64,000 nucleotides of DNA, from assembly GCA_945889005.1 (NCBI GenBank), contig CAMDBI010000021.1:1-64000 (forward strand), written 5' to 3'. The notes under the pieces are model-generated. The model was not told where the DNA came from, ran no database searches, and saw nothing but the letters and a program-made list of their open reading frames with translations. This stretch comes from Bacteroides fragilis. Its GTDB lineage: Bacteria > Bacteroidota > Bacteroidia > Bacteroidales > DTGW01. A program made the position numbers and the translations under genes. Positions 42,092 to 63,982 of this stretch are shown here, piece after piece (position 1 is the stretch's first letter; every line of letters begins with the position of its first letter).

Positions 42092-42130
42092 AATACATTA
42101 TACTTTTTTATTAACTAAATATTAAATATT

Positions 42131-44129: not shown

Positions 44130-46205
44130 ATGAAAAAGTTCATCCTGTTTGCCGTATTCATGAATTTGTTTTATAACATTATCGCTCAGGATAATAAAAC
44201 AACACTACTTCCGGGTACAACAATTTATCTAAACGACACAAATTCTGCTCCAATTAATAAGGCTCTTAATATATTGCAACGCGATTTATTAGCCGTGTTA
44301 GGAAAAAAATCTCCTGTAAAATTATTAGATAACAAATTAGCAATTATTAAATCGATAATTATTGTTAATAATGAAACAGCCAAAGGCTACAAAGGTTTTG
44401 ATTTAAAAGGTTTTGAAAGACATCAAATATATATAAACAACTCAAATATAGTATTACATGGTACTGATGAGTTAGGCACGATTTTTGCTATTTATACTTT
44501 TAGCGAACAATTTTTAGGCATTAAGCCATTATGGTTTTGGGCATCGTTAAAACCAATTTCAAAAGACAACATTTCTATTTCTAATTCATACAAGTTCGAT
44601 TCGGGCGAACCTTATGTAAAATATCGCGCCTGGTTTCCAAACGATCAGGATATGTTTGGTCCATGGAGAGACCTTTCGAATTTTAACAATGAAATTTTAT
44701 ACGAAACACTGCTAAGATTAAAACTAAATACAATTGAAGTTGAAAACACCATTGATTATACTAAGAAAGGTTCTGTTACAGAAAGAGCTAAGTTAATTGA
44801 CCAATATGGACTTATTATGACTTTTCATCATCACTCTCCGATGAACTCAAAATCAAGCGATTGGGAGACTTATTGGAAAATGATGGGAAAAACTGGCAAA
44901 CCCGAATTCAAACTAAGCAATATGTCGGAGCTTGAAGAGTTTTGGCGCTATAATGTAAAAACACTTATTGAAAATGGAATTGATAAAATAATTTGGGGTG
45001 TTAATTTCAGGGGAAATGGCGACCGGCCTTTCTGGCTATCATATAGCGATGCACCCGAAAGCATGGAAGCCAGAGCAGGAATAATTAATAAAGTTGTAAA
45101 CCGACAAATTGAAATATTAAAAGAAGAAAACAAGGCTTATCTACCTATGACTCGAATGATTTTTTATGACGAAATATCAGACCTTTTAGCTGAAGGATTA
45201 TTGAAACCACCTGCTGAAGAAAACCTTATTTGGAATTATGTTGCAGCACGTCGCGACCATTTCCCAAATGATGATATCCGAAATCAGACTTTTGACAATT
45301 CAATAAATTTAGGTTATTACATGAACCTTCAGTTTACATCAACAGGTTCGCATTTGATACAAGCAGAAGGTCCCTGGAAGATGGAAAAAAATTACCGGTA
45401 TGTTGACTCTAAAAACGATAAACCTGTCATTTTTTCTGTAGCAAATTCGGGAAACAACCGCGAACATTTATTGACGCTTAGTGCAAATGCCGAAATGTTA
45501 TGGAATTTTAAATTATACAATACCAATAGTTTTCTAAAACAGTTTTGCGGCGTCTATTATGGCAACGAACAGGCAGAAAACATTGCCGGCTTATACAAAC
45601 AATTTTTTTATGCATATTGGAACCCCAAAAAGAGCGATATCGAAGGCTTCGACCGACAATATATATTCCACGATTTGAGATATAAGCAAGCGGTTAAGCA
45701 GCTATCGGCCAAATTTCTAGATACCATTAATTTAAATCCCCTTAAGGATTATTCATGGGAACAACTTCCAAATAGGGCATTTCGGATTGTACCTGCAGAC
45801 AATGGGGCCGAAAACCAGGTTGATGCATTGCTAAATGGCACTAAAGCATCGTACGAACGATTTCAAAAAGTTGTTCAGCAGGCCGATAGCACGCTTCAAT
45901 ACATACATCCAGAACATCAGACTTTCTTTAACGACAATTTACGTTACCCTGCCTATTTTATGATGCATTTAAATGATGCTGTTTATCATTATTTTATGGC
46001 CTATAAGACCGAAAATGTTCATGAAAAAGCAAAGTTGGTACGCAAATCGCACTATGCAGCCGAGAAAGCAAGATTAAGCCTTTATCAAATGGCGCATGGC
46101 GATTTCGAAACTTGGTATGCTCACGAACATATATTCGATATTGATGATTTTGTTAACAGAATTCAAAAAACATACAATTCGCTTCAGGAAACATTATTGT
46201 ATTAA
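44130..46205 (+). CDS. GH115-like alpha-glucuronidase family protein
   Basis: The 691-residue protein has a signal peptide (to IIAQ) and the GH115 arrangement: an N-terminal alpha/beta domain ending GTDELGTIFAIYTFSEQFLGI (near 112-132), then a TIM barrel with RAWFPNDQD and a KIIWGVNFRGNGD motif (near 285-297), comparable with the RGxGD motif of GH115. GH115 enzymes remove glucuronic or 4-O-methyl-glucuronic acid from xylan or other glucuronate-bearing polymers. It is shorter than usual members (about 800-950), lacking the C-terminal module. It would be periplasmic, with no T9SS tail. A 19-bp gap leads to the GH2 gene. Confidence 0.75.
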   Translation: MKKFILFAVFMNLFYNIIAQDNKTTLLPGTTIYLNDTNSAPINKALNILQRDLLAVLGKKSPVKLLDNKLAIIKSIIIVNNETAKGYKGFDLKGFERHQIYINNSNIVLHGTDELGTIFAIYTFSEQFLGIKPLWFWASLKPISKDNISISNSYKFDSGEPYVKYRAWFPNDQDMFGPWRDLSNFNNEILYETLLRLKLNTIEVENTIDYTKKGSVTERAKLIDQYGLIMTFHHHSPMNSKSSDWETYWKMMGKTGKPEFKLSNMSELEEFWRYNVKTLIENGIDKIIWGVNFRGNGDRPFWLSYSDAPESMEARAGIINKVVNRQIEILKEENKAYLPMTRMIFYDEISDLLAEGLLKPPAEENLIWNYVAARRDHFPNDDIRNQTFDNSINLGYYMNLQFTSTGSHLIQAEGPWKMEKNYRYVDSKNDKPVIFSVANSGNNREHLLTLSANAEMLWNFKLYNTNSFLKQFCGVYYGNEQAENIAGLYKQFFYAYWNPKKSDIEGFDRQYIFHDLRYKQAVKQLSAKFLDTINLNPLKDYSWEQLPNRAFRIVPADNGAENQVDALLNGTKASYERFQKVVQQADSTLQYIHPEHQTFFNDNLRYPAYFMMHLNDAVYHYFMAYKTENVHEKAKLVRKSHYAAEKARLSLYQMAHGDFETWYAHEHIFDIDDFVNRIQKTYNSLQETLLY

Positions 46206-46224: not shown

Positions 46225-48033
46225 ATGCTTAATATCAAATTAATAGCTTATTTATTGTGTTTTGTAAGTATTTATGCTTTTGCAGGTGAATACTCATTAA
46301 TAACTAATATTGCCAATCGAAACACTGTTTCGCTAAATGGCAAATGGCGAACTATTGTCGACCAGGCTGAAATAGGTAAAAAACTAAAATTTTGGGAAGA
46401 CAAAACGGTAAAAGACAAAACAGAATTATTAGAGTATAATTTCGACATGGCCGAATACCTCAATGTGCCTGGCGATTGGAATTCTCAACTCCCGGAATTG
46501 AACTACTATGAAGGTAAAATCTGGTACCGTAAAACATTTCCTTTTACACCAAAAAACAACAAAAGGTATTTTTTATACTTCGGTGCAGCAAATTACAAAA
46601 CCGAGGTATATTTTAATGGTGAGAAATTAGGCGAACATCTGGGTGGCTTTACTCCTTTTAATTTTGAAATTACTAAACTCCTTAAAAACGACAACTCAGT
46701 TGTGGTATCGGTCGATAATACCAGAAAAGTTGAACAAGTACCTACTTTAGTTAGCGATTGGAAAAATTTTGGAGGTATTACACGCGATGTACTTATTATT
46801 GAAGAAGATGAATTATTTATTGAGGATTATAGCCTACAACTAAAAAAAGGAAGTAATACGTTTCTCGATTTTAAAGTTTGGTTGAACGACTCAACTGCTA
46901 ACACAAAGCTAATTATTCAAATTCCTGAACTAAAACTGAATGAAGTTATTGATATAAAAAATGGAGAAGCACAACAGGAATTCAAAGTTAAAATTCCTGT
47001 TTTATGGACCCCAGAAACACCTAAATTATACAATGTTTCTCTGTATATCGACGAAAACAATAAGCTCACCGATCAAATCGGTTTTAGAACCATTGAGGTA
47101 AAAGGGAAGGATATTTTATTAAATGGCAAATCAATATTCTTAAGAGGCATCAGTTTGCACGAAGAAAATCCGTTTACTAACGGTCGTGCCCATTCAAAAG
47201 AAGAAGCAAGAATGATGCTTACATGGGCTAAGGAATTGGGATGCAACTACGTACGCTTATCGCACTATCCGCACAACGAGTATATTGTGCGATTGGCCGA
47301 TGAAATGGGATTGCTACTTTGGGAAGAAATACCTGTATATTGGCAAATTGACTGGGACAACGAGCAAACTTTTGTTTTAGCAAAATCGATGTTAAGCGAT
47401 GTAATTAAACGCGATAAAAACCGAGCTTCCCTGATTATTTGGTCGGTTGCTAATGAAACTGATATATCGGATAGCAGGAACAAATTTTTAAAAGCACTCA
47501 TAGATTATACCAGGGAAAAAGATAATACACGCCTGATTAGCGCTGCTCTTTTAACAGAAACGCATACCGAAGGCGATGTAGTTAAAAAAGTAGTAGATGA
47601 TCCTTTTGGTAATTATGCCGATGTTGTTTCGGTTAACCAATATATGGGGTGGTATGGTAAACCAACACCGGAAAGACTGCAAAATCTTGTATTGGATATA
47701 AAGTTTGACAAACCTTTTTTATTTAGCGAGTTTGGAGCAGGAGCATTAGGAGGTTTTCATGCCGATTCTCTCACACGTTGGAGTGAGGAATATCAGGAAT
47801 GGTATTATACCGAAACTTTAAAAATGTGCAATAGGATTGACCAACTACGTGGCATTAGCCCATGGATACTAATTGATTTCCAATCGCCACGACGTTTGCT
47901 TGCAAACTATCAGGATGGGTACAACCGAAAAGGTCTCATTTCCAGTGAAGGGAAAAAGAAAAAAGCGTTTTTTGTGCTTCAAAAATACTATCAGAATAAA
48001 GTAAAAGAATCGACAATAATTAATAACAAGTAA
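46225..48033 (+). CDS. GH2 beta-glucuronidase-like enzyme
   Basis: This 602-residue protein has a signal peptide (to AFA) and the three-domain GH2 core: VPGDWNSQLPELNYYEGKIWYRKTF near 82-106, an Ig-like domain and a TIM barrel with acid/base in WSVANETD (Glu near 411) and nucleophile in LFSEFGAG (Glu near 501). An NRKGL motif near 566-570 matches the NxK motif that binds the carboxylate of uronic acids in beta-glucuronidases, which argues against a galactosidase. It would release glucuronic (or galacturonic) acid in the periplasm, fitting its GH115-like neighbour. Confidence 0.85.
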   Translation: MLNIKLIAYLLCFVSIYAFAGEYSLITNIANRNTVSLNGKWRTIVDQAEIGKKLKFWEDKTVKDKTELLEYNFDMAEYLNVPGDWNSQLPELNYYEGKIWYRKTFPFTPKNNKRYFLYFGAANYKTEVYFNGEKLGEHLGGFTPFNFEITKLLKNDNSVVVSVDNTRKVEQVPTLVSDWKNFGGITRDVLIIEEDELFIEDYSLQLKKGSNTFLDFKVWLNDSTANTKLIIQIPELKLNEVIDIKNGEAQQEFKVKIPVLWTPETPKLYNVSLYIDENNKLTDQIGFRTIEVKGKDILLNGKSIFLRGISLHEENPFTNGRAHSKEEARMMLTWAKELGCNYVRLSHYPHNEYIVRLADEMGLLLWEEIPVYWQIDWDNEQTFVLAKSMLSDVIKRDKNRASLIIWSVANETDISDSRNKFLKALIDYTREKDNTRLISAALLTETHTEGDVVKKVVDDPFGNYADVVSVNQYMGWYGKPTPERLQNLVLDIKFDKPFLFSEFGAGALGGFHADSLTRWSEEYQEWYYTETLKMCNRIDQLRGISPWILIDFQSPRRLLANYQDGYNRKGLISSEGKKKKAFFVLQKYYQNKVKESTIINNK

Positions 48034-51000: not shown

Positions 51001-51472
51001 TACGCTTACAGCAATTGTAACAGGTAACAATGTTCGTTTATCTTGGTCTTCAATGCCAAATGCTGTTGCCTTTAATGTATACAGAGATAGCGTAATAATC
51101 GCCGATTCTATTACCTTAGTGACTTATACCGATCAAGGTGTGGCAAACGGAACTTATACATACGCTGTAACCGCAATCAATGTTTTTGATGATGAATCGG
51201 GTAAAAAAGAAAAGCAGGTGACTGTAAATTACATACCAAGTTCAATTTTAGGCTTTACTAAACCTACAATTTCGGTATATCCTGTTCCATTTGAAAACGT
51301 ATTAATGATTGATGAAAATGTAAAAATCAATTCATTAAAAGTTGTAAATATTACTGGTCAGTCAATTAATTATAAATTAGAAAACAACCAACTAAGTATG
51401 CCTGGGGCAGAGAGTGGTTTGTATTTTATACTAATAAATAATGAATTTACTGTAAAAGTTACTAAGAAGTAG
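48062..51472 (+). CDS. T9SS surface protein with duplicated unknown domain and seven FN3 modules
   Basis: After a signal peptide (to about SASAAPS) comes a 230-residue alpha/beta domain (about 33-262: DHSTVEWLRNEGYVVFVDTA, AAKLIIIS, TTPVLCHSS, KWVFFGPKG). A second copy lies at about 665-905 (DSMTIDWIRSNNYTVFVDTA, AAKLIIIS, TTPVLCQNA, KWVFFAPKG). Five fibronectin type III modules separate them and two follow, each with LSWDAVTGAVGYNVYR-like cores. The last 80 residues (ISVYPVPFENVLMI ... GLYFILI) are a T9SS sorting domain. The duplicated domain resembles a ThuA/glutamine-amidotransferase-like fold but has no recognised catalytic residues. A surface glycan-binding or scaffold role is inferred from location. 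Confidence 0.7.
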   Translation: MEKQKLNLKKLITMLFAIVILSGSASAAPSASFAPDIIWQSITGATKYGYDHSTVEWLRNEGYVVFVDTAIVFHGKKLTQDGIDSINAAKLIIISINTNSSLYLDSIVGKGMAKVTTPVLCHSSNVTRSSQMRFFSTTTRASVSTNDTLKMRNIDSRLNAKSDTIIDTNGIEHATPGGNETYTLLANKDGSGRVLFAEFAAGVETYPGGYTPGSKWVFFGPKGQKNGVISFTTRGKELYLNTIKYLKTIPRNFTKNVTLNDVALSWDAVTGAVGYNVYRGAVLIGNAITTTTLNDENLADGTYNYTVEAVSAGFKSGTSSVQAVVDTELDKPANLIAAVNVDTVRLSWDAVAGAVGYNIYRNSILVGDSILVANYTDADVADGTYIYGVTAINGLDVESDTSKTPEQIINTSYPAPANLSKEIVGNDVTLKWDVAASALGYNVYRNDVKVGDAIADTFYIDQDLAEGTYKYDVSAKSPAGETSKTSISVTIDTKLPAPINFTANVALNVVSLSWDAVAGAVGYNVHRGTVLIGDSTTTTTLNDQGRADGTYNYTVKAINQFDVESDADSVQAVVKTKLLAPANFIATVSNDTVRLSWDAVTGAVGYNIYRNSILVGDSVLVANYTDAKVADGKYIYKVTAINGLDAESLASSATEFAIGKLVVADIIFETDNYKADSMTIDWIRSNNYTVFVDTAKIYRNKLLPQLSIDELNAAKLIIISRETNSSHFKTTNIGAGYKQITTPVLCQNAYVVRKSRMNLFNSDELTELPGANIYFKKINQKLLTITDSIQIDTTSWTYIKPIGTENYTLLADPTANGGVLIAEFKGGKKTYTSTADTGGFVPGGKWVFFAPKGTTPGLTPSFVTGKISFTDSGKVLYINLLKYLTTPPPAKLVPAPENLTGLAVLKDVTIKWSPVIGALAYNIYKDDILIGDSIVDTTFVSRGLADKAYKFDVAAIDSLGVESDIATVRVEVYTSVSAPVTLTAIVTGNNVRLSWSSMPNAVAFNVYRDSVIIADSITLVTYTDQGVANGTYTYAVTAINVFDDESGKKEKQVTVNYIPSSILGFTKPTISVYPVPFENVLMIDENVKINSLKVVNITGQSINYKLENNQLSMPGAESGLYFILINNEFTVKVTKK

Positions 51473-51491: not shown

Positions 51492-51535
51492 AAGTTGCTC
51501 AATTACCTGTATTATGGTTTTTGAGCAACTTTTTT
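51492..51535 (+). terminator. Hairpin terminator after the FN3 protein gene
   Basis: AAGTTGCTCAA (51492-51502) pairs with TTGAGCAACTT (51521-51531), followed by T residues. It precedes the next gene by about 25 bases and rules out the in-frame TTG at 51521 as a start. Confidence 0.8.
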
Positions 51536-51559
51536 ATTATATTAACACAAATTAGTATT

Positions 51560-53089
51560 ATGTGCCAGTTCAATAATAAAGTAATAATGGTAGTTCTGAT
51601 ATTTGCCTTAGTATCATGTACTGTTGGTTTTCGTGATGCAGAACTGGCTTCGGAAGCAATAGGAACCGTAAAAAGTAAATATTCCAGCGAAATAATAGCC
51701 TCACCATTTGGCATTCAGGCAGGTACTACAGAAGACTCTGTCCTTCAACATGCAGCGCAAATTGGAGTAAAATGGACTCGTTTGGGTGCCCATTGGCCGG
51801 GTATTGAAAATAAAAAAGGTATATATAGCTGGAGTAAACTCGATACCGCCATTAATGTAGTTATAAGAAACGGAATAACTCCGTTTATTACCCTTGGTGG
51901 CAGTAACGAACTATATTCAAAGTTGAGCACCTATGACGACGCCAAACTGGCCGCTATTTATGGTTATAAACCGGAGCCACCGGTAAAGGATGCCAAGGCA
52001 TTTACAGCATACCTTGCTTATGTTAGAGCCACCGTTGAACGTTATAAAGATAAAATTGATTACTGGGAAATTTGGAATGAACCCAACCACAGGAATTATT
52101 GGGGAGCAACACCCGATGGGAAAGAATATGGCATATTATTGCTTAAAACAGCTACTTTGGTTCGTGAACTGGATCCTGGCTGCAAAATTATTGCTGGAGC
52201 TATGGCAGGCATCGATCCGGCATTTGCAAACGATTTTCTTCAAGTATGCCCCGATTCATTAATTGATATTATTTCCTTTCATAATTATGGTGCTGTGCCC
52301 GAAGAGCGTGTTTATGCTGCTGTTGAACTTTGGGAGGTAATTCATAAATATAGCAATACTATTGAATTATGGCAGGGCGAATGTGGATACCCATCGCATA
52401 GCAGCACCCGCGATTACAGGGGAAGGGCCCCCTGGGGATTAAATATTCAGGCCAAATGGCTGTTACGACAAAGCTTTGTCGATTTATATTACTGCCATAC
52501 CACACTGAGCAATTATTTTAAATTAGCCCATACCGAAGGTAAAGGCGAAAAACACGAGCGGAAAAATTTAAGTTCGCTGGATAGCATATTTGGCTATCCT
52601 GAGCGTGGCGGCTCAAGGGTAAGAATAAAAGGCATAAATGAAAAATGCTTGCTTACCAATCCTGAATACAACAAAAAACCAGCTTTTTTTGCCTATCAAA
52701 ACCTATGCGCTATCTGGAAACCTGATTATAAAAAATATAAAACAAATTACACATTTGATATAACTAATGAAGGCGATTTTTATGGCATTTCCGAAGACGA
52801 TGCCTTTCCTTCGTTACCCTTGCTGGCTTCATTTGCCGATAGTGAAGGCAACCATTTAGCAGCCTATTGGATTCCTTGGAATATGCAGGAAAACATAATC
52901 AATACTGCAACGGTTAATATTACACTACAAAACCTTTCATTTAAATCACCTGTGCTTATCGATCCTTTGTCAGGTAAAGTATATCCGGTAAGCGTTATTA
53001 AAAAAGACAATCAAAGCATTATTGGCAATGTTCCTTTAACCGACTACCCTTTAATTATTGCTGAGCAGGCAACAATAGAAATTAAATAA
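51560..53089 (+). CDS. GH-A-clan glycoside hydrolase lipoprotein
   Basis: I start at 51560 (MCQFNNKVIMVVLIFALVSC); a start at 51587 (MVVLIFALVSC) is also possible. The sequence ALVSC is a lipobox, so this is probably a lipoprotein. The TIM barrel begins SPFGIQAG (about residue 47) and has the acid/base in YWEIWNEPNH (Glu near 174) and the nucleophile in WQGECGYPS (Glu near 273), as in clan GH-A (GH39/GH5-like). The family cannot be fixed. It is 510 residues. It may cleave the polymer backbone at the cell surface. The T9SS tail of its neighbours is missing. Confidence 0.75.
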   Translation: MCQFNNKVIMVVLIFALVSCTVGFRDAELASEAIGTVKSKYSSEIIASPFGIQAGTTEDSVLQHAAQIGVKWTRLGAHWPGIENKKGIYSWSKLDTAINVVIRNGITPFITLGGSNELYSKLSTYDDAKLAAIYGYKPEPPVKDAKAFTAYLAYVRATVERYKDKIDYWEIWNEPNHRNYWGATPDGKEYGILLLKTATLVRELDPGCKIIAGAMAGIDPAFANDFLQVCPDSLIDIISFHNYGAVPEERVYAAVELWEVIHKYSNTIELWQGECGYPSHSSTRDYRGRAPWGLNIQAKWLLRQSFVDLYYCHTTLSNYFKLAHTEGKGEKHERKNLSSLDSIFGYPERGGSRVRIKGINEKCLLTNPEYNKKPAFFAYQNLCAIWKPDYKKYKTNYTFDITNEGDFYGISEDDAFPSLPLLASFADSEGNHLAAYWIPWNMQENIINTATVNITLQNLSFKSPVLIDPLSGKVYPVSVIKKDNQSIIGNVPLTDYPLIIAEQATIEIK

Positions 53090-53098
53090 TTTACTGAT

Positions 53099-56002
53099 AT
53101 GAAGACACAACTAAGCTTTACAATTGTACTGATTTTTACAGTATTGACCTTAATTAGCCAATCGGTTATAGGGCAGGTTAAAATGTATCCAACACCGCTC
53201 AATGCCGTTACAAGTGCGGTATTCTCGCTCAAAGCCGATGGTTCGGCCGTGTATGTAAACGATTATATGGACTATCATTATGTTCATTTCGAATTATCTG
53301 GAACTACTACTATTGAGGTAACTGCACCTGAGAATATTTCGACTTACACGGTAAGTCCTGTTTCACTTGGCATTGTTGCCACGGTTCTTGGCAATAAACT
53401 AACATTTAACATTGTACAAAATAAAACAGATCACGAAACACCAAGCTATTTAATTGTTCAGATCAACAATCTTGAAAAATTGGTTATTCTTGCCGACAGG
53501 CCAGAAACAGATGTACCACAGGCAAGCGGAAGTGGAATATATAATGTAAGGAATGCTGCTTACAATGCCGATTCTACCGGTGTAAGCAGTGCACAAAGCG
53601 CCATTCAGAAAGCAATAGATGATGCAACAAACGCCGGAGGCGGTATTGTTTATGTCCCCTATGGTTTGTATCAAATTAAAGAAAACCTGACTTTAAAGAG
53701 CAATGTGAGCCTGTATATAGAAGCAGGGGCTGTTTTAAAGTCAATTGAAAACAGAAATGAATACCCTCTGGTAGCTGGAATCGAACCGGCAGTAATTATT
53801 CACAATGCCAAAAATGTAAAAATTTACGGCAGAGGCGAGATCAATGCAAGCGGTTTTGCAATCATGAATCCTATTCTTGGTTTTACTGAACAAAGTGTAG
53901 AGCATCCGCGCCGTAGGGTTATTGAAACCGATAATTCTCAAAATATTATTCTTAACGGAATTCTAGTAAAGGATGGAACTGGCTGGACTGTTGAGTTGAA
54001 ACTTTCCGACACAGCTGTGGTACAGAATGTTAAAGTGCTCAATCATAAAGACATCAACTATAAAATTCAAAACGATGGTATTAATGCAACATCATCGTCA
54101 AATACATTGGTTAATCAGTGTTTTGTAATGACCATTGACGATGCCATGTGTTCCAAATCGCGTTATAATGGAACAATGAAGAATTGCACTTTTTCAAACA
54201 ATGTGATTTATTCTTGGTCGTCGGGGGTAAAAGCCGGCATGCAAAGCACCGGCAACATGGTTAATATTGTTTTTCGTAATTGCGATGTGGTACATGCAAG
54301 ACGTGGAGTGGGTATTGATACCAGAGAAGGATATAAACCAATAGCAGGAGTGGTTTTTAATGATATTAGAGTCGAAGAGCTTGAACCTACATCGGGTGGT
54401 GGCGACTATGCCATTGAGTTTGCAACAGAATTAGCTCCGGTTGATAATATTACAGTGCGAAGGGTTACCTGTACAACAAATAACAAAATCAGACTGGCAG
54501 GTTTATTCGATTTAACAAATATAAAGTTTGAAGGCATAGAACTTAATAATAAACTTGTTATGTCAAACGCCATGGCAAATGCTTCAATTGAACCGGGAAT
54601 CAATGTAACCTATAGTTATGATTCGGTATTTACCGATGATATAGTTTATGATAGCACGTATAGCGATATATCTTCTGGCTGGACAGGCGCCGGATTAATA
54701 AACAATGGCATTAAAAACGATGTTGCTTCGAATAGTGCAACCGAAGCATGGATTGAATACTCATATACTGAAGCATTAGATATTTATAAAGCTCGGGTAA
54801 ATATTTCCGGCAATACTGGTACCACCTGGATGATTAAATATTGGAACGATACCTCAACTGTATGGTCGAATGCCTTTCCTGATGCTGTAACATTAATAGA
54901 AGGCTGGAACAATAAAACCTTTTATGCATCGGCTTCAAAAATTCGTTTTTATTTTTACAACGCTGCAGGAAACATTAACATCAATGAAATACAAGGTTTT
55001 GCCGATATCGTTGCTATAGAGAACAATGGTGGCGCAGATAGTAACAAGTGCTTACTTATTGAACCCGAAGACCTGAGCGGACACAAACAGTTTGCTCCCT
55101 TTTATGTGGCTGCAGATGCCACAGCCTGCAATGGTTCTTATGTCGTTTCCGATACCGATGGCGATTTAAACCTGCCAAGCAGTACCGGTGTAGTAAATGT
55201 CGATTTTTATGTTGATAGCGCTGCCAGATATAATTTTTTACTCAGAGTTATTGCTCTAGGTACAAGTGATGACTCGTTTTGGGTTATTGTCGACGGCGAT
55301 GCTGTTAAATACAACCTAATTAAAGCTAGTACAGAATGGATTTGGGTAGAAGCGCCCAAGTCGTACGATTTAACTAAAGGCTTGCACAACCTTAAAATAG
55401 TAAACCGTGAAAGTAACACAAAACTCGACCAGATACTGATTAGTACATCAGCAAATTTGCCTACGGGTTGTTCTTCGTGTGGTAATAAATACGACCCTTC
55501 TATTATTTATTATACGCTAAAAACCAGTGCAGTTGGATTGGGATCAATATCCCTCGACCGGGCAGATGGAGTTTATGTTGCAGGAACTTCGGTTACATTA
55601 ACAGCAATTCCTGCTAAAGGCTATTTTTTTGATGGCTGGAGCGGCGATACGCTTAGTACTACAAACCCTCTACAAGTAGTTATGGATAAAAATAAGAGTA
55701 TTGCTGCTACTTTTAGAAAAATCGAAACTTCAAATGCTAGAATATTCAGTAACAATGAAATCAATGGGCAGATTCAGATATATCCAAATCCTGCTAACAA
55801 TGTATTGTTTTTTAATATAGAAGGACAAATTGAAGGTACTATTACGCTATATGGAATTAACGGGATTGCTGTCAGAAAACAATACATCGGGCAGAAAAAC
55901 ACTATAAGCACAAGCGATTTGCCGGAAGGTTTGTACATGATTCAGTATATATCGGTTAATGGCAAAGTTAAGTATTCCCAAAGCTTATACATTACTCACT
56001 AA
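53099..56002 (+). CDS. Clan GH-N (GH28/GH49-like) beta-helix enzyme with CBM and T9SS domain, 967 aa
   Basis: Signal peptide to about VIGQ. An N-terminal beta-sandwich (27-145) precedes a right-handed beta-helix (about 160-500) with an NDGIN motif near 324 and TIDDAM near 345, the acidic residues of clan GH-N. The GHG and RIK motifs of polygalacturonases are not seen. Then come a discoidin-like region (500-640), a galactose-binding-like CBM (EPEDLSGHKQFAPF, about 650-780), an InlB-like repeat (GYFFDGWSGD, about 802-872) and a T9SS sorting domain (IYPNPANNVLFF, from about 890). It may be a surface glycanase for an acidic polysaccharide; the exact linkage is unknown. Confidence 0.78.
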   Translation: MKTQLSFTIVLIFTVLTLISQSVIGQVKMYPTPLNAVTSAVFSLKADGSAVYVNDYMDYHYVHFELSGTTTIEVTAPENISTYTVSPVSLGIVATVLGNKLTFNIVQNKTDHETPSYLIVQINNLEKLVILADRPETDVPQASGSGIYNVRNAAYNADSTGVSSAQSAIQKAIDDATNAGGGIVYVPYGLYQIKENLTLKSNVSLYIEAGAVLKSIENRNEYPLVAGIEPAVIIHNAKNVKIYGRGEINASGFAIMNPILGFTEQSVEHPRRRVIETDNSQNIILNGILVKDGTGWTVELKLSDTAVVQNVKVLNHKDINYKIQNDGINATSSSNTLVNQCFVMTIDDAMCSKSRYNGTMKNCTFSNNVIYSWSSGVKAGMQSTGNMVNIVFRNCDVVHARRGVGIDTREGYKPIAGVVFNDIRVEELEPTSGGGDYAIEFATELAPVDNITVRRVTCTTNNKIRLAGLFDLTNIKFEGIELNNKLVMSNAMANASIEPGINVTYSYDSVFTDDIVYDSTYSDISSGWTGAGLINNGIKNDVASNSATEAWIEYSYTEALDIYKARVNISGNTGTTWMIKYWNDTSTVWSNAFPDAVTLIEGWNNKTFYASASKIRFYFYNAAGNININEIQGFADIVAIENNGGADSNKCLLIEPEDLSGHKQFAPFYVAADATACNGSYVVSDTDGDLNLPSSTGVVNVDFYVDSAARYNFLLRVIALGTSDDSFWVIVDGDAVKYNLIKASTEWIWVEAPKSYDLTKGLHNLKIVNRESNTKLDQILISTSANLPTGCSSCGNKYDPSIIYYTLKTSAVGLGSISLDRADGVYVAGTSVTLTAIPAKGYFFDGWSGDTLSTTNPLQVVMDKNKSIAATFRKIETSNARIFSNNEINGQIQIYPNPANNVLFFNIEGQIEGTITLYGINGIAVRKQYIGQKNTISTSDLPEGLYMIQYISVNGKVKYSQSLYITH

Positions 56003-56180
56003 AAGCAATAAACAGGGACTACCAACAGTACAATTTTTTGTAATTACGATAATTGAAACACTCTTAAATTTGAAATAAACATTTTGACCGGAGCTTATCC
56101 TATTGTTCATAATAGGATAGCTTTTGTCTTATTGCCGAAGCAAAAATCGACTCAGAAAAACAATTTAAATTTTAAATTAA
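56003..56180 (+). other. Intergenic region, nothing definite
   Basis: A short AT-rich gap between two beta-helix enzyme genes. A possible hairpin TCCTATTGTTCATAATAGGA (56097-56116) may act as terminator or leader structure. Confidence 0.45.
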
Positions 56181-57854
56181 ATGTTAAATATTATAAAAAG
56201 CTGTACGTTTTTGTTATTCTTTTCCTTTTTACATGAATATGTAAACGGGCAGGTTGAAATTTACCAGTTCTCATCTGAAACGAAGAAGGCATCTGATTTT
56301 AAGGTATATGTAAATGACCAGGAAGTATTTGTACACACTGCCCCTGCATCAATTTCTCTAGATCCGCTCAATTTGCAAGGTATGCCTACCCCTGCATTTG
56401 CCAGCTTTGGCTGCAGCGAAACGGTAACTGTAAGAGTAGAGCTCATTGGAGAATCACTAAATTCGGTGGAATTAAGACCCAGATCTAAAGGAATTAGCCC
56501 AACGATTAATGGTTCAGAATGTAGTTTTACAATGTCCAGTATGGACAAAATAATTGTACTGAAAAATGGTGATAAAAACAGAAGACTTTATCTGTTTGCA
56601 AATCCTTTGGAGGTAAACAAACCATCTCCCATCGATTCAAATGTAATTTATTATGCAGCAGGTCAAATATACGATGTAGGTGTTTTAAATACTCAACCTG
56701 GTCAAATTATTTATATCGAAGGAGGTGCCATAGTAAAAGGAAATATTAATGTGTATAATGATAGTAACGTGCAGGTGAAAGGTTTTGGAATTCTGGATGC
56801 GACAGGGAGGAATCCCAACCAAACAATCAGGGTAAATAATAGTCCTAACTTCACCATGGAAGGCATAACGATAGTAAATGAAAACAACTGGACTGTAGGC
56901 ATTTATATTTCGAATAATGTTGCAATTAAGGATGCGAAAATTATAGCCTATAATAACGTATACACAGATGGTCTTGATGTGCTGGGCTCCAGCCATATAT
57001 ACATAAACAATTGTTTTATTACCAGTGGAGATGATTGCATTTCAATTAAGACCGATAAATGGATTTTCGCTGGCAATGTTAACGATGTAGTTGTTGAAAA
57101 TTGTATACTCTGGAAAGAAAGAAGGGGTAATGCAATGACTATTGGCAAGGAAGTAGGCAAATATAAAGGAAATAGTCACTTAGGTATTAGAGATGTATAT
57201 TTTAGTAATATTGACGTAGCCTATGATGGAACGGTACCTGAGAGTCCATTTGGCAGAGCCGCAATTTCGGTTTACAATGATGGTATGGGGTATGTAAAAA
57301 ATATTAATTGGACAAATATCAATATAGATGAAGCAAAAGAGAATTTAATAAATATTACTTCGGCAGCATCTGCAGAAGCTTTTGTTGATAGTATTAGCGT
57401 GACCAATGTAAACTTAACAGGAGGCGAACGGGTACCATCGATAATTTCCGGATATAATTTCCAGAAAAAAATTGAACATGTTGCGTTTGACAGTCTGATG
57501 ATTCATGGACAGCTTATTCTAAATCATGCTGCAGGAAACTTCACTATAAAAAATGCTGATGAAATTACTTTTGGGCCATCTTCACAAGTTGGTGTATATA
57601 ACACAATTGAAAGCAAAGAACATGTTAAGATATATCCAAATCCGGCAAACAATTTTTTTTATATTGAACCTTTTAGCAATGCAAAAGGTATAGTATTGTT
57701 ATACAGAATTGATGGTGTGGTTGTAAGGAAACAATACATTGAGCAAAAAACCTCCATAAGCACTATAGATCTGGCTCAAGGATTATACCTCTTTAAATAT
57801 TTTTCAGAGAATGGAAAAGTTGTAAAGGCGCAAAACCTTTATATAACTCGCTAA
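56181..57854 (+). CDS. Clan GH-N beta-helix enzyme with T9SS domain, 557 aa
   Basis: The signal peptide ends near YVNGQ. A N-terminal beta-sandwich (about 25-145) is followed by a beta-helix with GGAIVKGNINVY and GFGILDATG, then TDGLDVL near 261 and SGDDCISIK near 281-289, the paired acidic motifs of GH28/GH49. The position of GHG reads GNAMTIG, and the RIK motif is missing. The T9SS sorting domain (IYPNPANNFFYI ... GLYLFKY) closely resembles that of the preceding gene, including VVRKQYI. Expected to be a surface exo- or endo-hydrolase on a uronate- or glucan-type polymer. Confidence 0.8.
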   Translation: MLNIIKSCTFLLFFSFLHEYVNGQVEIYQFSSETKKASDFKVYVNDQEVFVHTAPASISLDPLNLQGMPTPAFASFGCSETVTVRVELIGESLNSVELRPRSKGISPTINGSECSFTMSSMDKIIVLKNGDKNRRLYLFANPLEVNKPSPIDSNVIYYAAGQIYDVGVLNTQPGQIIYIEGGAIVKGNINVYNDSNVQVKGFGILDATGRNPNQTIRVNNSPNFTMEGITIVNENNWTVGIYISNNVAIKDAKIIAYNNVYTDGLDVLGSSHIYINNCFITSGDDCISIKTDKWIFAGNVNDVVVENCILWKERRGNAMTIGKEVGKYKGNSHLGIRDVYFSNIDVAYDGTVPESPFGRAAISVYNDGMGYVKNINWTNINIDEAKENLINITSAASAEAFVDSISVTNVNLTGGERVPSIISGYNFQKKIEHVAFDSLMIHGQLILNHAAGNFTIKNADEITFGPSSQVGVYNTIESKEHVKIYPNPANNFFYIEPFSNAKGIVLLYRIDGVVVRKQYIEQKTSISTIDLAQGLYLFKYFSENGKVVKAQNLYITR

Positions 57855-57883
57855 AGAACTGAAAATATTTAATCATTATGATC

Positions 57884-58005
57884 CAATGTCGTTTAGTTAA
57901 CATTCTTCTTTTTTACACCCATCCCCTAAAGGGGTGAAAATGAAGTCCCCTTTAGGGGATTTTGGGGTAATTAAAAAGTTAATATTTCTTAACTAAACGA
58001 CATTG
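57884..58005. mobile_element. MITE-like element, copy 2
   Basis: This 122-bp element matches copy 1 (18915-19036) over its whole length with only a handful of base differences, including the terminal repeat CAATGTCGTTTAGTTAA and the internal CCCCTAAAGGGG/CCCCTTTAGGGG pair. No target duplication is seen here. It lies in a gap between two beta-helix enzyme genes; short TAGTAAT repeats follow at 58006-58032. The rest of the gap to 58182 shows no gene. Confidence 0.9.
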
Positions 58006-58188
58006 ATTAGTCATTAGTAATTAGTAATTATTTTTGTTAAATACAATCTGACGATTTTTCCGAAACAAAGAATTTCACTTTGAAGTAGATGTATTATGGT
58101 TATAGAGTTTAAAAGTCATAAGTAACACATTTTTCTCACTTAGTGAGTTAAAATATTTTTCAATATTTTTACAATTAACAACTTGAAC

Positions 58189-61100
58189 ATGCGAATTATG
58201 AAAACAAAAGTACGAATGAAGCATTTACCTTTTCTAATGAAGGTTGCAGTATCACTAATAGTATATTTTAATTCAATAAACCTTTATGCCCAATGTGACT
58301 CTACGCTCAGAAATGGCGATTTTGAAGTTGTAAAACTAGATGTTGTTGAGGTATTTAAAAATCAGGCATGTTACGATGTGAATAGTAATTATATTTTGCG
58401 TGTTAACAACCAAGTAGTGCCTTTATTGGAGCACAAATATTACGAATATGTAGGTGCACCAAATATTCATTTAAACGTACTTTTTGCGAGTTTTTATTTT
58501 ACCGATACAGTAATTGTTGAAATTAAAAAAACATCGTCATCCATTGGTACTTACTCTATTAGTCCGTTAAAATTTAATATTACCCCGGAGAAAACCAGTA
58601 ATACTTTAACCTTTGCTATCAATAGTCCAAAACAATTGTATATTGATATTGATGGAACAGAAATATTATTATTTGCCGAGGCAAAACTAACCAATAAGCC
58701 ACAGGAATCAGGAACAGGTATTTTTAATATTACGAGTTATGGTGCCAGTTCAAATAGCAATTATACAGTAAATCAGGCTACTGCTATTCAAAACGCCATT
58801 AACGCTGCCTCTGCTTATGGCATTTCAAATGGCACCAGAGGTACTGTTTATGTTCCTGCCGGGCTATATTATACAACCAATCTCGATTTGAAAGACAGCC
58901 TTAATATTTACCTCGAGGGGGGCGCTGTTATTCGCGGTACAGGCCGATCGGACGATTACGGCACAGGTACAGGCCGATTGTCTATGTTTAATGCTGAAGG
59001 TAGTGCATCAAACTTTATAGAAAATGTAAAAATATACGGCCCCGGCATTATCGATGCCAATGGTGTAGCCACAGCCAAAGTAGATAATATAGCTGATTTG
59101 TACGATAAAATAAACTTACGCAATGGTCATTTACTGAGGTTGATTTCGATGGACTATGTCAAAAATATCGATATTGAAGATGTTATAGCCATGGAAGGTT
59201 CGTCGTGGCAGTTAAGTTTTCATGAGTCGGAAAAAATTAATATTGAACGGGTAAAAGTGATTGGACACCGAACCATGAAATGGAATGATGGCATTGATGT
59301 AAGCGCCTGCAAAAACGTGGTAATACGCGATTGTTTCGCTATTGGCTTCGATGATAATTTCTGCATTAAAGATGATGCGTACCAGGTTTCTGAAAATATT
59401 CTTATTGAAAATGCTGTAGGATATTCGCATTCCCGCACATTTAAAATTGGTTTTCAAGCTGGAGCCGGCGTTCGTAATTGCACCATAAGAAATGTAGACG
59501 CTGTTCGTTCGCGCCATGCGTGCCATTTAATGCAGTCGACCGGAACAGGAGCCACCTGGGAGGATATTTTAATTGAAAACTATGTTGTTGAAAAACTGCA
59601 ACCATCAGATCCTTTAGATAGTAGTGAACCTGCACCTTTTCGGATTCAATTGTCGCTCGATAATGGTATTGCTAAAAATATCGCTGTAAAAAATTTCACC
59701 TTCTTAGGAGATAATTATGCCAGTTCGCCTTACGATAGCGACCTGGATCAGGAAGGCATAAATACTACCATTAATAATATTGCATTTACCAATTTCAAAG
59801 TAGGTGGTAATTATGCAACAAATAATGTTCAGGCTTATTTGGATGTGAACACGGCTACAAATATTACTTTTAACACCGATCAGGCCAATAAGGCGCCGGT
59901 ATACAGCAATGTACCGGTTTCGGCAATTTTGGGCAGCAATGCTACACCTAAATATTGGCAACTGACCGGTTCAGGCGCTTTTGAAGACGCTACAGCCGGG
60001 CGCAGTGGCCGTGCAATTAGCCTTGAACCACACGCTGGTGGTTCTTATTGGCAACAGCAATTATGCAACCTAAACGTTGGCAGCACCTATTGGTTAAAAG
60101 GTTTTATAAAAACCGAAAATATAAGTGGTGGTTACGCTGCAATGGTGGTTGGGCAATCCGACACTTCGCAAAAGGTTTCAGGCACAACAGGCTGGTCCGA
60201 AGTATCCATTGAGTTTGTTGCTGATGCTCAAACTAAAAATATATTTTGCCTGTTCGATGCCACCAACGGCAAAGCCTTTTTCGATGATATAACTTTTATT
60301 GCAACACCAACCGGGGTGTCTGTTGAGCCTTCAATATTGAGCATTACAAAGGGTGACACTAAACAATTGCGGGCATCGGCCATTCCTGAAAATGGACTGG
60401 ATTTGGGCTATTCATGGCAATCAAACAATCCTTCTGTGGCCTTCGTCGATCAAAACGGCTTGCTTACAGCTATTGCAGCGGGTAATGCCGACATTATAGC
60501 CATTTCGAAATATAACAATAGCTTTTCCGATACCTGTACCGTAAAAGTTCTTGATAAGGTAATTATTAAAAATTACTTTTTGGAAGCCGAAAGCGCATCC
60601 GGACAAACCCTTTTTAGTCCTTTTGAAGTGGTTGATGACAATTCTGCTTCCGGCAAAAAATATATAGTAACAAATTTGAGCAATACTACGGCCAGTAATG
60701 CTATTACAGGTCAGGCAGCTTATACTTTTGAACTGGCTGAAAACACAAACGTTACATTTTCGGTTATTGCCGATTTTCCGGCAGGTGGCGACGATTCTTT
60801 CTTTTATAAAATGGATAATGGATCCTGGCAAACACAGAATGGCCAAACAACCTCTGGGTGGGATACTTTGGAGATAAATGAATTTAATTCATTATCGGCT
60901 GGCACACACACACTTACTTTATTACGACGCGAAAATGGGGCTAAAATCGACAAAGTTTTTTTTAGTACACCTAAAGCAGTTATTATTACAGATTCAGTTG
61001 CGGTTATAGTCCCTGTTGACAAACTAGTGCTTTCGGCAGCAAGCATTTCGCTTGCAAAAGGTCAGTCAGGCACACTTACTACACAAATATTTCCGGCAGA

Positions 61101-61818
61101 TGCTACAATTAAAGCAATAACCTACAGCTCCGGCAGCCCATCGGTTGCTACGGTTAGCCAAAGTGGGCTGGTGACTGCAATTGCAGTGGGCAGCGCAACA
61201 ATTACCGTTACCTCGGCTGCCGATGGAAGCAAAACCGATGTGTGCACGGTTACGGTAACGCCTGCTGTTGTTGCAGTGGACAGCATTAAAATAGCACCGA
61301 AAAGTTTGGCATTGGCGATTGGGCAAACAAGCACCCTGGGCACCACGGTGTACCCGGATGGTGCTACCAATTCAGCTGTTACCTACAGCTCCGGCAGCCC
61401 ATCGGTTGCTACGGTTAGCCAAAGTGGGCTGGTGACTGCAATTGCAGTGGGCAGCGCAACAATTACCGTTACCTCGGCTGCCGATGGAAGCAAAACCGAT
61501 GTGTGCACGGTTACGGTAACAGACCCTGGAACAAACCTGATATTGGATAAATTGAACGAAAGTTTACGAGCATATCCCAATCCGTTTAATAATCAGGTTG
61601 TTGTTACATTTAACACTAAACCAAATTCAAATATAGCCATTACCCTGCACAATGTAACCGGAAAAGAATTAATTATTAATCACTACAAACCCCAAACATT
61701 AGTTAATAATGAGCTTGTATTAAGTACAGCTCATTTACCTGGTGGAGTTTATTTTATAAAAGTAATGGTGGGTACAAATATTAATACAAGTAAAATAATA
61801 AAACTGGTAAAACATTAA
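58189..61818 (+). CDS. Clan GH-N beta-helix enzyme with CBMs, three Big2 modules and T9SS domain
   Basis: I take the ATG at 58189; 58198 (MKTKVRMKHLPF) is equally possible. After a signal peptide (to NLYAQ) come an N-terminal beta-sandwich (about 30-165), a beta-helix (176-560) with WNDGIDVSAC near 365 and GFDDNFCIKDD near 385, a CBM4_9-like domain (587-704), a Big2 module (707-789), a CBM6/35-like domain (794-929), two further Big2 modules (942-1024, 1030-1112) and a T9SS sorting domain (AYPNPFNNQVVVTF, from about 1124). GHG and RIK motifs of polygalacturonase are absent (YSHSRTFKIG occupies that region). The last two Big2 modules share an exact 140-bp DNA repeat. Confidence 0.8.
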   Translation: MRIMKTKVRMKHLPFLMKVAVSLIVYFNSINLYAQCDSTLRNGDFEVVKLDVVEVFKNQACYDVNSNYILRVNNQVVPLLEHKYYEYVGAPNIHLNVLFASFYFTDTVIVEIKKTSSSIGTYSISPLKFNITPEKTSNTLTFAINSPKQLYIDIDGTEILLFAEAKLTNKPQESGTGIFNITSYGASSNSNYTVNQATAIQNAINAASAYGISNGTRGTVYVPAGLYYTTNLDLKDSLNIYLEGGAVIRGTGRSDDYGTGTGRLSMFNAEGSASNFIENVKIYGPGIIDANGVATAKVDNIADLYDKINLRNGHLLRLISMDYVKNIDIEDVIAMEGSSWQLSFHESEKINIERVKVIGHRTMKWNDGIDVSACKNVVIRDCFAIGFDDNFCIKDDAYQVSENILIENAVGYSHSRTFKIGFQAGAGVRNCTIRNVDAVRSRHACHLMQSTGTGATWEDILIENYVVEKLQPSDPLDSSEPAPFRIQLSLDNGIAKNIAVKNFTFLGDNYASSPYDSDLDQEGINTTINNIAFTNFKVGGNYATNNVQAYLDVNTATNITFNTDQANKAPVYSNVPVSAILGSNATPKYWQLTGSGAFEDATAGRSGRAISLEPHAGGSYWQQQLCNLNVGSTYWLKGFIKTENISGGYAAMVVGQSDTSQKVSGTTGWSEVSIEFVADAQTKNIFCLFDATNGKAFFDDITFIATPTGVSVEPSILSITKGDTKQLRASAIPENGLDLGYSWQSNNPSVAFVDQNGLLTAIAAGNADIIAISKYNNSFSDTCTVKVLDKVIIKNYFLEAESASGQTLFSPFEVVDDNSASGKKYIVTNLSNTTASNAITGQAAYTFELAENTNVTFSVIADFPAGGDDSFFYKMDNGSWQTQNGQTTSGWDTLEINEFNSLSAGTHTLTLLRRENGAKIDKVFFSTPKAVIITDSVAVIVPVDKLVLSAASISLAKGQSGTLTTQIFPADATIKAITYSSGSPSVATVSQSGLVTAIAVGSATITVTSAADGSKTDVCTVTVTPAVVAVDSIKIAPKSLALAIGQTSTLGTTVYPDGATNSAVTYSSGSPSVATVSQSGLVTAIAVGSATITVTSAADGSKTDVCTVTVTDPGTNLILDKLNESLRAYPNPFNNQVVVTFNTKPNSNIAITLHNVTGKELIINHYKPQTLVNNELVLSTAHLPGGVYFIKVMVGTNINTSKIIKLVKH
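61120..61259 (+). repeat. 140-bp exact direct repeat, copy A (Big2 module)
   Basis: Identical to 61381-61520; period 261 bp (87 codons, one Big2 module). Confidence 0.95.
61381..61520 (+). repeat. 140-bp exact direct repeat, copy B (Big2 module)
   Basis: Identical to 61120-61259. The 121 bp between the copies differ from the corresponding part of the first module. Confidence 0.95.
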
Positions 61819-61891
61819 GTTATTAAGCGTCAGAATAATAAGGCATTATTGATTGGGCGTTTTAAAAGATGGTATATAATAACCAATAATT

Positions 61892-63982
61892 ATGAAAGTA
61901 GCAGTAAAAAAAAATATAGAACGTAGTATTTTGAATGTCATAATTTTAACAACAATGCTGTTTGTTAGTTTTCAAAATTTATACGCACAGTGCACGGCCG
62001 GCATTAAGAATGCCGGATTCGAAGAAACCGGTAATGTTATAGCGTATCCGGTTCCCGCATGTTATCCAATATCCGACGATTACGTAATTCGTGTGAACGG
62101 AACCAATGTGCCCGTAATAAAGCACGAATACTACCCATATGTAGGAGCAACCAGCAAAGTATTGAATGTATTGCATGCGAGTTTTTATTTCAAAGGCACA
62201 GCTGTGATTGAAATAGAGAAGCAATCTGCTTCAATAAACAGTTTTACTATTAGTCCTAAAAAATATAATATAGCACCAATTGAGCCAGACAGCAAAACCC
62301 TAAAGTTTGCCATTAACGAGCCTAAACACTTGTATATCAACATAAATGACACAGAAATTTTACTGTTTGCCGAAAACATACTCACCAATCAACCTGCAAG
62401 CAGCGGAGTGGGAATTTATAACATTACCAATTACGGGGCAGGCTCAAACAACAACAGCACCGTTAATCAAAAATCAAAAATTCAGGCTGCCATTGATGCT
62501 GCCTCGTCCTATGGAACTCCTTCGGCTCCGGGTACAGTATATGTTCCGGCCGGTGTTTATTACACTACCGATTTAAAATTAAAAGACAATGTAAATCTTT
62601 ATCTCGAAGGAGGCTCAGTATTGCGCGGTACTGGCAATTCTGACAATTATGGATCGGGAACAAGCACAAAAACGGTACTAAGGCTAGATGGTAGTTCAAG
62701 TAACAGAATTGAAAACGTTAAAATATATGGTCCGGGTTTCATTGACGCAAACGGTGTTTCTACCGCTGAAGCTCCTAATGTGCCCGACTTTGACGACAAA
62801 ATAAATGATCGGACCGGTCATAAGATGCGTTGTATTGATGCTGACTATATTCGTAACATTACGGTTGAAGATGTTCTTGTAAGAGAGGGAACTTCCTGGC
62901 AGGTAAGTTTTCATGAAGGTAATGATCTTTCTGTTGAAAGGGTAAAAGTAATTAGCCATCGCATTATGAAGCACAACGACGGTATTGACGTTAGCGCCTG
63001 CCAGGATGTGGTTATCCGCAATTGTTTTGCTCTTGGTTTTGATGATAATTTTTGTATTAAGGATGACCCTTACCAGCCTTCACAAAACATTTTGATTGAA
63101 AATATATTAGGCTATTCACATTCGCGAACATTTAAAATTGGCATGCAGGCTTATAATGCTGCACGTAATTGTACCATTAAAAATGTGGATGTAATAAGGT
63201 CGCGTCAGGCTTGTCATTTGCAGCAAATAAGAGGTGGAAATGCAATTTGGGAAGATATTTTGATTGAAAACTTCACCATTGACTATAACCTTCAGGCTTC
63301 TGACCCTTTTGATATTCGTGAACCAGCACCATTTTGTATAGAACTGGAAATGGATGGTGGTATTGCTCGTAATATAACAGTTAAAAATTTTACATATCTG
63401 GGCGATAATTGGAGCAACTCCGGTTTCGACAGCGATATGGATCAGTTTAGTGGTGTGAATACGGTTATCGACAGTATTTCCTTTGTTAATTTTAAAGTGG
63501 GCGGTAGTTACGCAATTTCACCCGAGTTAGCCAATATGGACACCAACAGAGCTACAAATGTTACTTTTAAAATAGATTTAAATAACCAGGCCCCTGAGTA
63601 CAAAAATGTACCAATTCCCGCTTCAAGCACAACAGATACATGTACAGATAGTGTAACAGACCCTGGTACAAACCTGATATTGGATGAATTGAACGAAAGT
63701 TTACGAGCATATCCCAATCCGTTTAATAATCAGGTTATTGTTGAATTTAACAGAAAAATTCATTCGAATGTACAGATTTATTTACTCGATGTTATGGGTA
63801 AAGCGTTTTTTTATGAACGTTACAAACCCCAAATTTCAGTTAACGACGAATTTAAAATAAATACCTCTCAATTGTCGGGAGGATTGTATTTCCTGATTGT
63901 AATGGATGAGTCAGAAAAAAACATTATTAAAACCATCAGACTAATAAAAAATAATTCAAGAGATACTGCTGAAAAGCTCTAA
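61892..63982 (+). CDS. Clan GH-N beta-helix enzyme with T9SS domain, 696 aa
   Basis: This is a paralogue of the preceding gene: signal peptide to NLYAQ, the same N-terminal sandwich with ACYPISDDYVIRVNG, and a beta-helix with HNDGIDVSAC near 361 and GFDDNFCIKDD near 382. It lacks the CBM and Big2 modules; the helix is joined by DTCTDSVTDPGTNL, which looks like the leftover end of a Big2 module, to a T9SS sorting domain (AYPNPFNNQVIVEF) nearly identical at DNA level to that of the neighbour. GHG and RIK motifs are absent. It probably attacks the same or a related linkage. Confidence 0.8.
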   Translation: MKVAVKKNIERSILNVIILTTMLFVSFQNLYAQCTAGIKNAGFEETGNVIAYPVPACYPISDDYVIRVNGTNVPVIKHEYYPYVGATSKVLNVLHASFYFKGTAVIEIEKQSASINSFTISPKKYNIAPIEPDSKTLKFAINEPKHLYININDTEILLFAENILTNQPASSGVGIYNITNYGAGSNNNSTVNQKSKIQAAIDAASSYGTPSAPGTVYVPAGVYYTTDLKLKDNVNLYLEGGSVLRGTGNSDNYGSGTSTKTVLRLDGSSSNRIENVKIYGPGFIDANGVSTAEAPNVPDFDDKINDRTGHKMRCIDADYIRNITVEDVLVREGTSWQVSFHEGNDLSVERVKVISHRIMKHNDGIDVSACQDVVIRNCFALGFDDNFCIKDDPYQPSQNILIENILGYSHSRTFKIGMQAYNAARNCTIKNVDVIRSRQACHLQQIRGGNAIWEDILIENFTIDYNLQASDPFDIREPAPFCIELEMDGGIARNITVKNFTYLGDNWSNSGFDSDMDQFSGVNTVIDSISFVNFKVGGSYAISPELANMDTNRATNVTFKIDLNNQAPEYKNVPIPASSTTDTCTDSVTDPGTNLILDELNESLRAYPNPFNNQVIVEFNRKIHSNVQIYLLDVMGKAFFYERYKPQISVNDEFKINTSQLSGGLYFLIVMDESEKNIIKTIRLIKNNSRDTAEKL

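Follow-up and report, generated by a model that had tools for sequence, protein, structure and literature searches.

Four probable clan GH-N hydrolases with GH49-like architecture and GH28-like helix sequence in a Bacteroidales polysaccharide locus

Four genes in a 64,000-nucleotide stretch of Bacteroides fragilis DNA (the window) encode proteins that are, in our judgement, reasonably likely to be T9SS-secreted two-domain hydrolases of clan GH-N, members of an unnamed clade beside GH28 that either includes or borders on GH49, and acting on an acidic polysaccharide. GH28 and GH49 form one clan, yet have looked far apart; the broad bacterial group to which these proteins belong connects them in sequence, in fold and on the tree, and its N-terminal domain was found in 33 of the 295 genomes sampled of the order (E <= 1e-6). 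We would file the four under clan GH-N with a GH49-type architecture and no family assigned, three of them being Pfam-GH28 by score and the body being GH49-like, though not by profile. Profile-based annotation would label such proteins polygalacturonases. Should their active sites differ in the way that the motifs indicate, many labels of this kind would be wrong, and a set of new alpha-glycoside specificities would be open to testing.

The genes and their neighbourhood

The four reading frames, named here 53099, 56181, 58198 and 61892, are intact and lie on the plus strand (Table 1). The 58198 gene has a TTG start at 58183 and ATG codons at 58189 and 58198, and its residues are numbered from the last of these. 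In all four proteins the C-terminal end is a T9SS sorting domain by Pfam. Two full paralogues stand at the start of another contig of the same genome, C20 (L001:259-3987 and L001:7503-11636), and the set falls into type A (58198, 61892 and L001:259), type B (53099 and L001:7503) and type C (56181). The type A members 58198 and L001:259 are 59-66% identical to 61892, and the type B pair is 38% identical. A further type B gene begins beyond the window on the same contig (C21:72371; L002:12371-12457), where the contig end cuts it; the type assignment comes from comparing its start, MERKKPQNSILQPFRFSSVLLSFFLLIGL, with MKRKTQQNPILQSIRFFSVLLSFFLLVGL. This brings the genome to seven or more genes of the kind, provided that this start and the C20 copy do not belong to one repeat; an overlap between the ends of C21 and C20 was looked for and not found. 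Only five proteins of the genome match PF00295, namely the two C20 paralogues and three of the window proteins, so that no canonical polygalacturonase was found in it. A repeated stretch without a Pfam name (EAE..S....FSPF.V..D..ASGG.YIV) occurs in 53099 (about residues 650-795), in 58198 (about 845-975) and in the L001 genes, and looks like a carbohydrate-binding module common to several of the enzymes.

Table 1. Coordinates of the four enzymes, their domains and neighbouring genes within the window
Feature	Coordinates	Strand	Remarks
Hybrid two-component regulator (HTCS)	34463..38542	-	typical of polysaccharide loci
TonB-dependent receptor	39248..42091	+	
GH115 (alpha-glucuronidase family)	44130..46205	+	
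GH2	46225..48033	+	
GH39-like hydrolase	51521..53089	+	PF01229; nearest solved structures beta-xylosidases and PslG; same gene cluster
53099, type B enzyme	53099..56002	+	967 aa; N-terminal sandwich domain, beta-helix D326/D347-D348, InlB-like repeat, T9SS tail
53099, unannotated stretch resembling the other modules	within 53099..56002	+	
53099, N-terminal domain	53177..53533	+	profile A7
56181, type C enzyme	56181..57854	+	557 aa; N-terminal sandwich, beta-helix D263/D284-D285, T9SS tail
56181, N-terminal domain	56253..56636	+	
58198, type A enzyme	58183..61818	+	~1206 aa; N-terminal sandwich, beta-helix D364/D385-D386, Big_2 domains, T9SS tail
58198, N-terminal domain	58345..58716	+	
61892, type A enzyme	61892..63982	+	696 aa; N-terminal sandwich, beta-helix D363/D384-D385, T9SS tail
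61892, N-terminal domain	62036..62410	+	

The surrounding genes suggest a polysaccharide that contains uronic acid, above all GH115 in the window and, on C20, the glucuronate isomerase UxaC (692 bits). No SusD was obvious in the locus, and the stretch 39248-43765 is an unusual polysaccharide locus; after the TonB receptor it carries a T9SS-tailed protein whose family was not recognised (42131-43765). The cluster contains two GH2 genes in all. A secreted protein at 48062-51472 has an unrecognised domain twice (the first near residues 35-250) between fibronectin-like repeats, and gives a beta-sheet match to RGI_lyase (PF18370). Downstream on the window's contig lies a GH97 gene, of a family that includes alpha-glucosidases, and farther along another two-component-type protein, named by its likeness to one on C20. 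That contig also holds this second two-component regulator, a CBM96 protein whose middle was read by eye as a right-handed beta-helix, and a gene, likewise named by eye, that we take to be a hexuronate transporter.

Other polysaccharide-degrading genes adjoin those relatives whose neighbours were scanned (10 scanned, as a raw list without a background rate): GH88 with PL8 (L138), PL7 (L141), a sulfatase (L140), GH31 (L145), CE2 (L142), and a pectic lyase, a sulfatase and an RGL11-like C-terminus (L146). These neighbours favour acidic polysaccharides of many kinds. GH115 is discussed in connection with glucuronate in both arabinogalactans and xylan (PMC11036162, in excerpt), and on that basis a glucuronate-bearing arabinogalactan or exopolysaccharide is our guess for the substrate.

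Catalytic residues and family profiles

Asp and Asp-Asp are separated by 21 residues in all four proteins, the same spacing as in the triad of A. niger PGII (D180, D201, D202; excerpt of PMC8952511), which bears out the preliminary description in its claim of correctly spaced acidic motifs. Equally sound was its observation that the GHG histidine and the Arg-x-Lys motif of polygalacturonases are missing from every one of the four. The GHG position reads SSGVKAG in 53099, GNAMTIG in 56181 and SRTFKIG in 58198 and 61892, with no His, while the R-x-K position reads GID (53099), SVY (56181), HLM (58198) and HLQ (61892).

What this absence means was assessed on a joint alignment of 64 proteins, comprising 32 N-domain proteins, 20 named GH28 relatives and 12 further GH28-like proteins (the "X" rows, being those above 100 bits to profile A1, from 11 loci chosen out of many). 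The triad is complete in 30 of the 32 N-domain rows and in all 20 and all 12 of the others. At the GHG column, His is found in none of the N-domain rows, six of the 20 named relatives and none of the 12; one column beyond it, seven of the 32 N-domain rows have a His, all of them type C relatives and none among the four. R-x-K is likewise confined to the named relatives (13/20, against 0/32 and 0/12). Among the 32 GH28-like proteins without the N-domain, 17 therefore lack both motifs (5/20 and 12/12), and the 15 of these that are rows of profile A9 (the 12 "X" rows and six of the named relatives) match PF00295 at E <= 0.001 without exception. One protein with neither motif (L108) reaches 767.8 bits, where 500 suffice, with the NCBIfam rhamnogalacturonidase model BT4146, itself a GH28 enzyme (PMC8002723, in excerpt), and His223 is missing from GH28 rhamnogalacturonases according to an excerpt of PMC8952511. 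The earlier reasoning that proteins without GHG and RIK fall outside GH28 is thus rejected in view of L108, the rhamnogalacturonases and the 17 motif-less proteins. Since loss of both motifs is common in GH28-like proteins, the argument opposes classical polygalacturonase activity, not GH28.

In the alignment with GH28 relatives the invariant columns comprise the triad, one Lys and glycines, and a conserved Lys after the DD is common to the four and those relatives. Two relatives with the N-domain show partial loss of the triad (SGG for NDG, and NN for DD; L116:1465-2950 and L028:2829-4130), and from these residues it is possible that they are binding proteins or have a different chemistry. 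Another distinct subgroup comes from a single 11-kb contig (L143; contig C149 of genome G562), where four N-domain enzymes lie together; in the aligned ones HDG or HDC replaces NDG and the Lys after DD is absent.

Family profiles place three of the four over the PF00295 cut-off of 22.9 bits: 56181 (49.1 bits, E 5.8e-13), 61892 (47.1 bits, E 2.3e-12) and 58198 (38.2 bits, E 1.2e-9). Protein 53099 gives no PF00295 match at E <= 10 and matches PF12708 (34 bits, E 3.3e-8). Chance resemblance of motifs is ruled out by the Pfam E-values. The best NCBIfam models are all GH28 enzymes (PglB, BT4153, BT4146 and BT4155), and all stay far under their cut-offs, the best scores, set against 600, being 123.8 for 53099 (PglB), 36.5 for 56181, 75.4 for 58198 and 86.7 for 61892; no NCBIfam GH28 model passes for any of the four. 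A strong hit to one established family, which had been named beforehand as evidence against a new one, is thus seen only weakly, as PF00295 scores that are over cut-off in three of four and low in bits. The best PDB sequence matches of the enzymes are also GH28. A search of genome contigs with profile A2 returned ordinary GH28 alone (21 loci, best 29% identity), and so a named close relative of types A and B was not found; counts from the genome searches with A2, A3 and A1 are lower bounds, as at most three candidates were scored per genome.

The GH49 profile PF03718 matches none of the four at E <= 10, with filters that drop weak matches, and nothing in their own genome, and it matches five of the 32 members of the N-domain clade at E <= 1, the lowest value being 0.0012. 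Plain GH49 membership is rejected on this profile, although the architecture agrees; the preliminary suggestion of GH49-like enzymes holds for the body, as modelled in two of the proteins, and not by profile. GH87 and GH110 are absent from the Pfam matches of the four catalytic regions at E <= 10, again with HMMER filters that drop weak matches.

N-terminal domain, fold and tree

A profile of the N-terminal domain built from six proteins of the genome (four in the window, two on C20) brought in 27 other distinct proteins at E <= 1e-9, for a set of 33, and all 27 also score to the helix profile. Ordinary GH28 proteins match it at E above 1 only, with matches admitted up to E 10. In the own genome it occurs at six places, all of them these genes, with nothing else below E 0.2; the highest count among the sampled genomes is eleven matches, in G590. 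Three derived profiles are used below: A6 has 32 rows (without L143:5054-7456), A7 covers the N-domain (without two L028 proteins and L121), and A10 combines 56181 with 13 relatives (without L010). In the omitted type C relative (L010:1450-3072) the beta-helix frame reads through, with no stop codon, into a short-chain dehydrogenase, as a fusion or an assembly join.

AlphaFold2 was given the window proteins and GH28 relatives, with no GH49 sequence included. The 61892 model (pLDDT 84.4, pTM 0.87) superposes on isopullulanase 1wmr with Z 29.6 and rmsd 3.0 over 447 residues (model residues 39-561), and on GH49 structures 6nzs and 1ogm with Z 28.4 over 452 and Z 27.3 over 441. GH28 Z values equal or exceed those of GH49 (31.1 for 7b8b), over the helix only (338 residues, 172-562), and the alginate epimerase/lyase 8ja4 shares the highest Z, 31.1. 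Besides GH49, only the GH28 entries 2uve/2uvf among the rows listed start before residue 160 (from 142). Foldseek query TM-scores are 0.57-0.63 for GH49 and 0.43-0.47 for GH28 exo-enzymes and 1bhe, the best listed GH28 being 0.52 (7b8b_B). The 56181 model (pLDDT 83.5, pTM 0.88) is nearer still to GH49, which takes ranks 1-4 (Z 33.2, 33.2, 31.4 and 30.7; 407-414 residues; rmsd 2.6-2.7) and Foldseek ranks 1-7; the best GH28, 1bhe, has Z 29.0 over 285 residues, and a few non-GH49 rows begin before residue 145, each aligning at most 307 residues. For both models, GH49 structures alone align over both domains and at least 400 residues.

Structure prediction and superposition, as proposed in the preliminary description, thus give a GH-N fold with the GH49 body arrangement, where an N-terminal beta-sandwich precedes the helix, in 61892 and 56181, and by homology only in 53099 and 58198. 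The sandwich had been attributed to all four: the domain is indeed shared by all, a beta-rich form was modelled for these two, and the two models support its likeness to GH49. A PDB search with profile A7 returns no GH49 structure at E <= 10, so that this kinship rests on the models. Function cannot be read off a common fold.

In sequence the helix lies nearer to GH28, which counts against the reading preferred here: profile A6 finds GH28 3jur best in the PDB (148 bits, over the helix) and isopullulanase at 92.5 bits (2e-25), spanning N-domain and helix. Profile A10 scores 3jur at 92.2 bits, dextranase 6nzs at 80.7 (8e-22) and isopullulanase at 75.4 (3.2e-20). An unrooted, helix-only maximum-likelihood tree of 68 rows contains isopullulanase as its single GH49 row, because PF03718 gave one weak match, under cut-off, in 198 genomes of the phylum. 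It separates the 32 N-domain rows and isopullulanase from 35 GH28 rows (three of them solved structures) with support 100/99, so that in this limited sample the four fall outside GH28, in line with the earlier idea that they are set apart from it. Isopullulanase, the longest branch of the tree, groups with 15 N-domain rows, those of type C (96/95), and a tree that unites all N-domain rows without it is narrowly rejected (AU p 0.048). The A and B rows are, in the quick tree as drawn, the N-domain rows nearest GH28. A fair statement is that a series runs from GH28 through types A and B to type C with GH49. A search of the literature by title and opening abstract found no description of this clade, though full texts may still contain one.

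Proposed activity and nearest known systems

By analogy with their clan, the four are probably inverting alpha-glycoside hydrolases. Excerpts of two papers describe a mechanism common to GH28, GH49, GH87 and GH110 (PMC7939477), with one acid, a pair of bases and inversion (PMC7939477; PMC8952511). An alpha-linked glycan would accordingly be hydrolysed with inversion by these enzymes. The individual roles are assigned by analogy with GH28: the first Asp of the DD would be the acid (D384 in 61892, D347 in 53099, D284 in 56181 and D385 in 58198), and water would be activated by D363 and D385 in 61892 and by D326/D348, D263/D285 and D364/D386 in 53099, 56181 and 58198. R256 and K258 line subsites -1/+1 in GH28 (PMC8952511, in excerpt). 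As the polygalacturonase His and the uronate-binding Arg-x-Lys are replaced, these subsites are expected to recognise another sugar, or to bind a uronate through other residues. Type A has SRTFK and HLQ or HLM at the places of GHG and RIK, and so R412, K415 and H442 of 61892 may, speculatively and judging from sequence, contact a charged sugar. That the types differ at these places and keep the triad suggests a common chemistry on different linkages; each paralogue might cut its own linkage in an acidic polysaccharide, a substrate to which GH115, the glucuronate isomerase and likely hexuronate transporter of C20, and the lyases beside relatives all point.

Much of this could also be expected of divergent GH28 enzymes, rhamnogalacturonidase- or galacturonidase-like, in a pectin-type locus, with an N-domain gained once as an accessory and a GH49 likeness that is either a coincidence or an ancient trait of the clan. 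Such an origin would account for the PF00295 scores of three proteins, for best matches that are GH28 in both NCBIfam (PglB, BT4153, BT4146) and the PDB, for motif loss as in 17 of 32 N-domain-less proteins, for the pectic lyase and RGL11-like protein beside L146 and for UxaC on C20. We consider it unlikely, given NCBIfam scores that never pass (at most 123.8 of 600 bits), a tree whose GH28 rows exclude the four (100/99) and a 56181 model nearer GH49, in a locus whose scanned genes hold no pectin enzyme family beyond the four save the PF18370 match in 48062. That 56181, if not the others, is a true alpha-glucanase of the GH49 type, acting on dextran or pullulan, seems highly improbable. Its top structural matches are GH49, isopullulanase sits inside its clade (96/95) and GH97 lies downstream, yet PF03718 is absent from the four and from the genome, its best identity to any tree row is 31%, to a relative and not to GH49, and the locus is rich in uronate genes, with no GH31, GH66 or GH13 among those scanned.

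Nor need a beta-helix be a hydrolase: the top-ranking tie of 8ja4 with the 61892 model would suit a lyase or epimerase on the same fold, and CBM89, a binding-only beta-helix family (PMC8810776, in excerpt), a catalytically dead glycan-binding helix. A decayed site would lose the triad, Lys and glycines that are invariant in the alignment with GH28 relatives, and the full D/DD triad at GH28 spacing is present in all four and kept in 30 of 32 N-domain rows; this reading we therefore regard as improbable. Two-domain GH-N hydrolases thus remain our preferred reading. A bolder extension of it, to which we give somewhat less than even credence, is that a large undescribed Bacteroidota superfamily of GH49 architecture has diversified its active sites onto many acidic polysaccharides, with the GH49 dextranases and isopullulanase as one specialised branch; types A, B and C would then found new GH families with new linkage specificities.

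Among known systems, the GH87 alpha-1,3-glucanases and GH110 alpha-1,3-galactosidases share the fold and catalytic machinery (PMC7939477, in excerpt); GH87 matches are weaker, from Foldseek rank 13 on for 56181, and GH110 appears as one alpha-1,3-galactosidase chain, 8yk3, at rank 50 for 61892. The GH28 enzymes (PglB, rhamnogalacturonidases of the BT4146/BT4153/BT4155 type, galacturonidases, 3jur and 5olp) resemble the four in helix sequence, D/DD triad, spacing and the Lys after DD, and differ in that the 20 named GH28 relatives match the N-domain nowhere below E 1 and that the tree places the four apart from the GH28 rows sampled. GH49 dextranases have neutral alpha-glucans as substrates (excerpt of PMC10316084), whereas the present locus looks uronate-oriented; moreover, GH49 identity to the models is low (14-21%) and PF03718 does not recognise the four. 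It is nonetheless the GH49 isopullulanase and dextranases (1wmr/3wwg, 1ogm and 6nzs) that share the order and packing of sandwich and beta-helix over about 407-452 residues (rmsd 2.6-3.2), with TDG and DD motifs that align and an aligned isopullulanase that is likewise without GHG and RIK.
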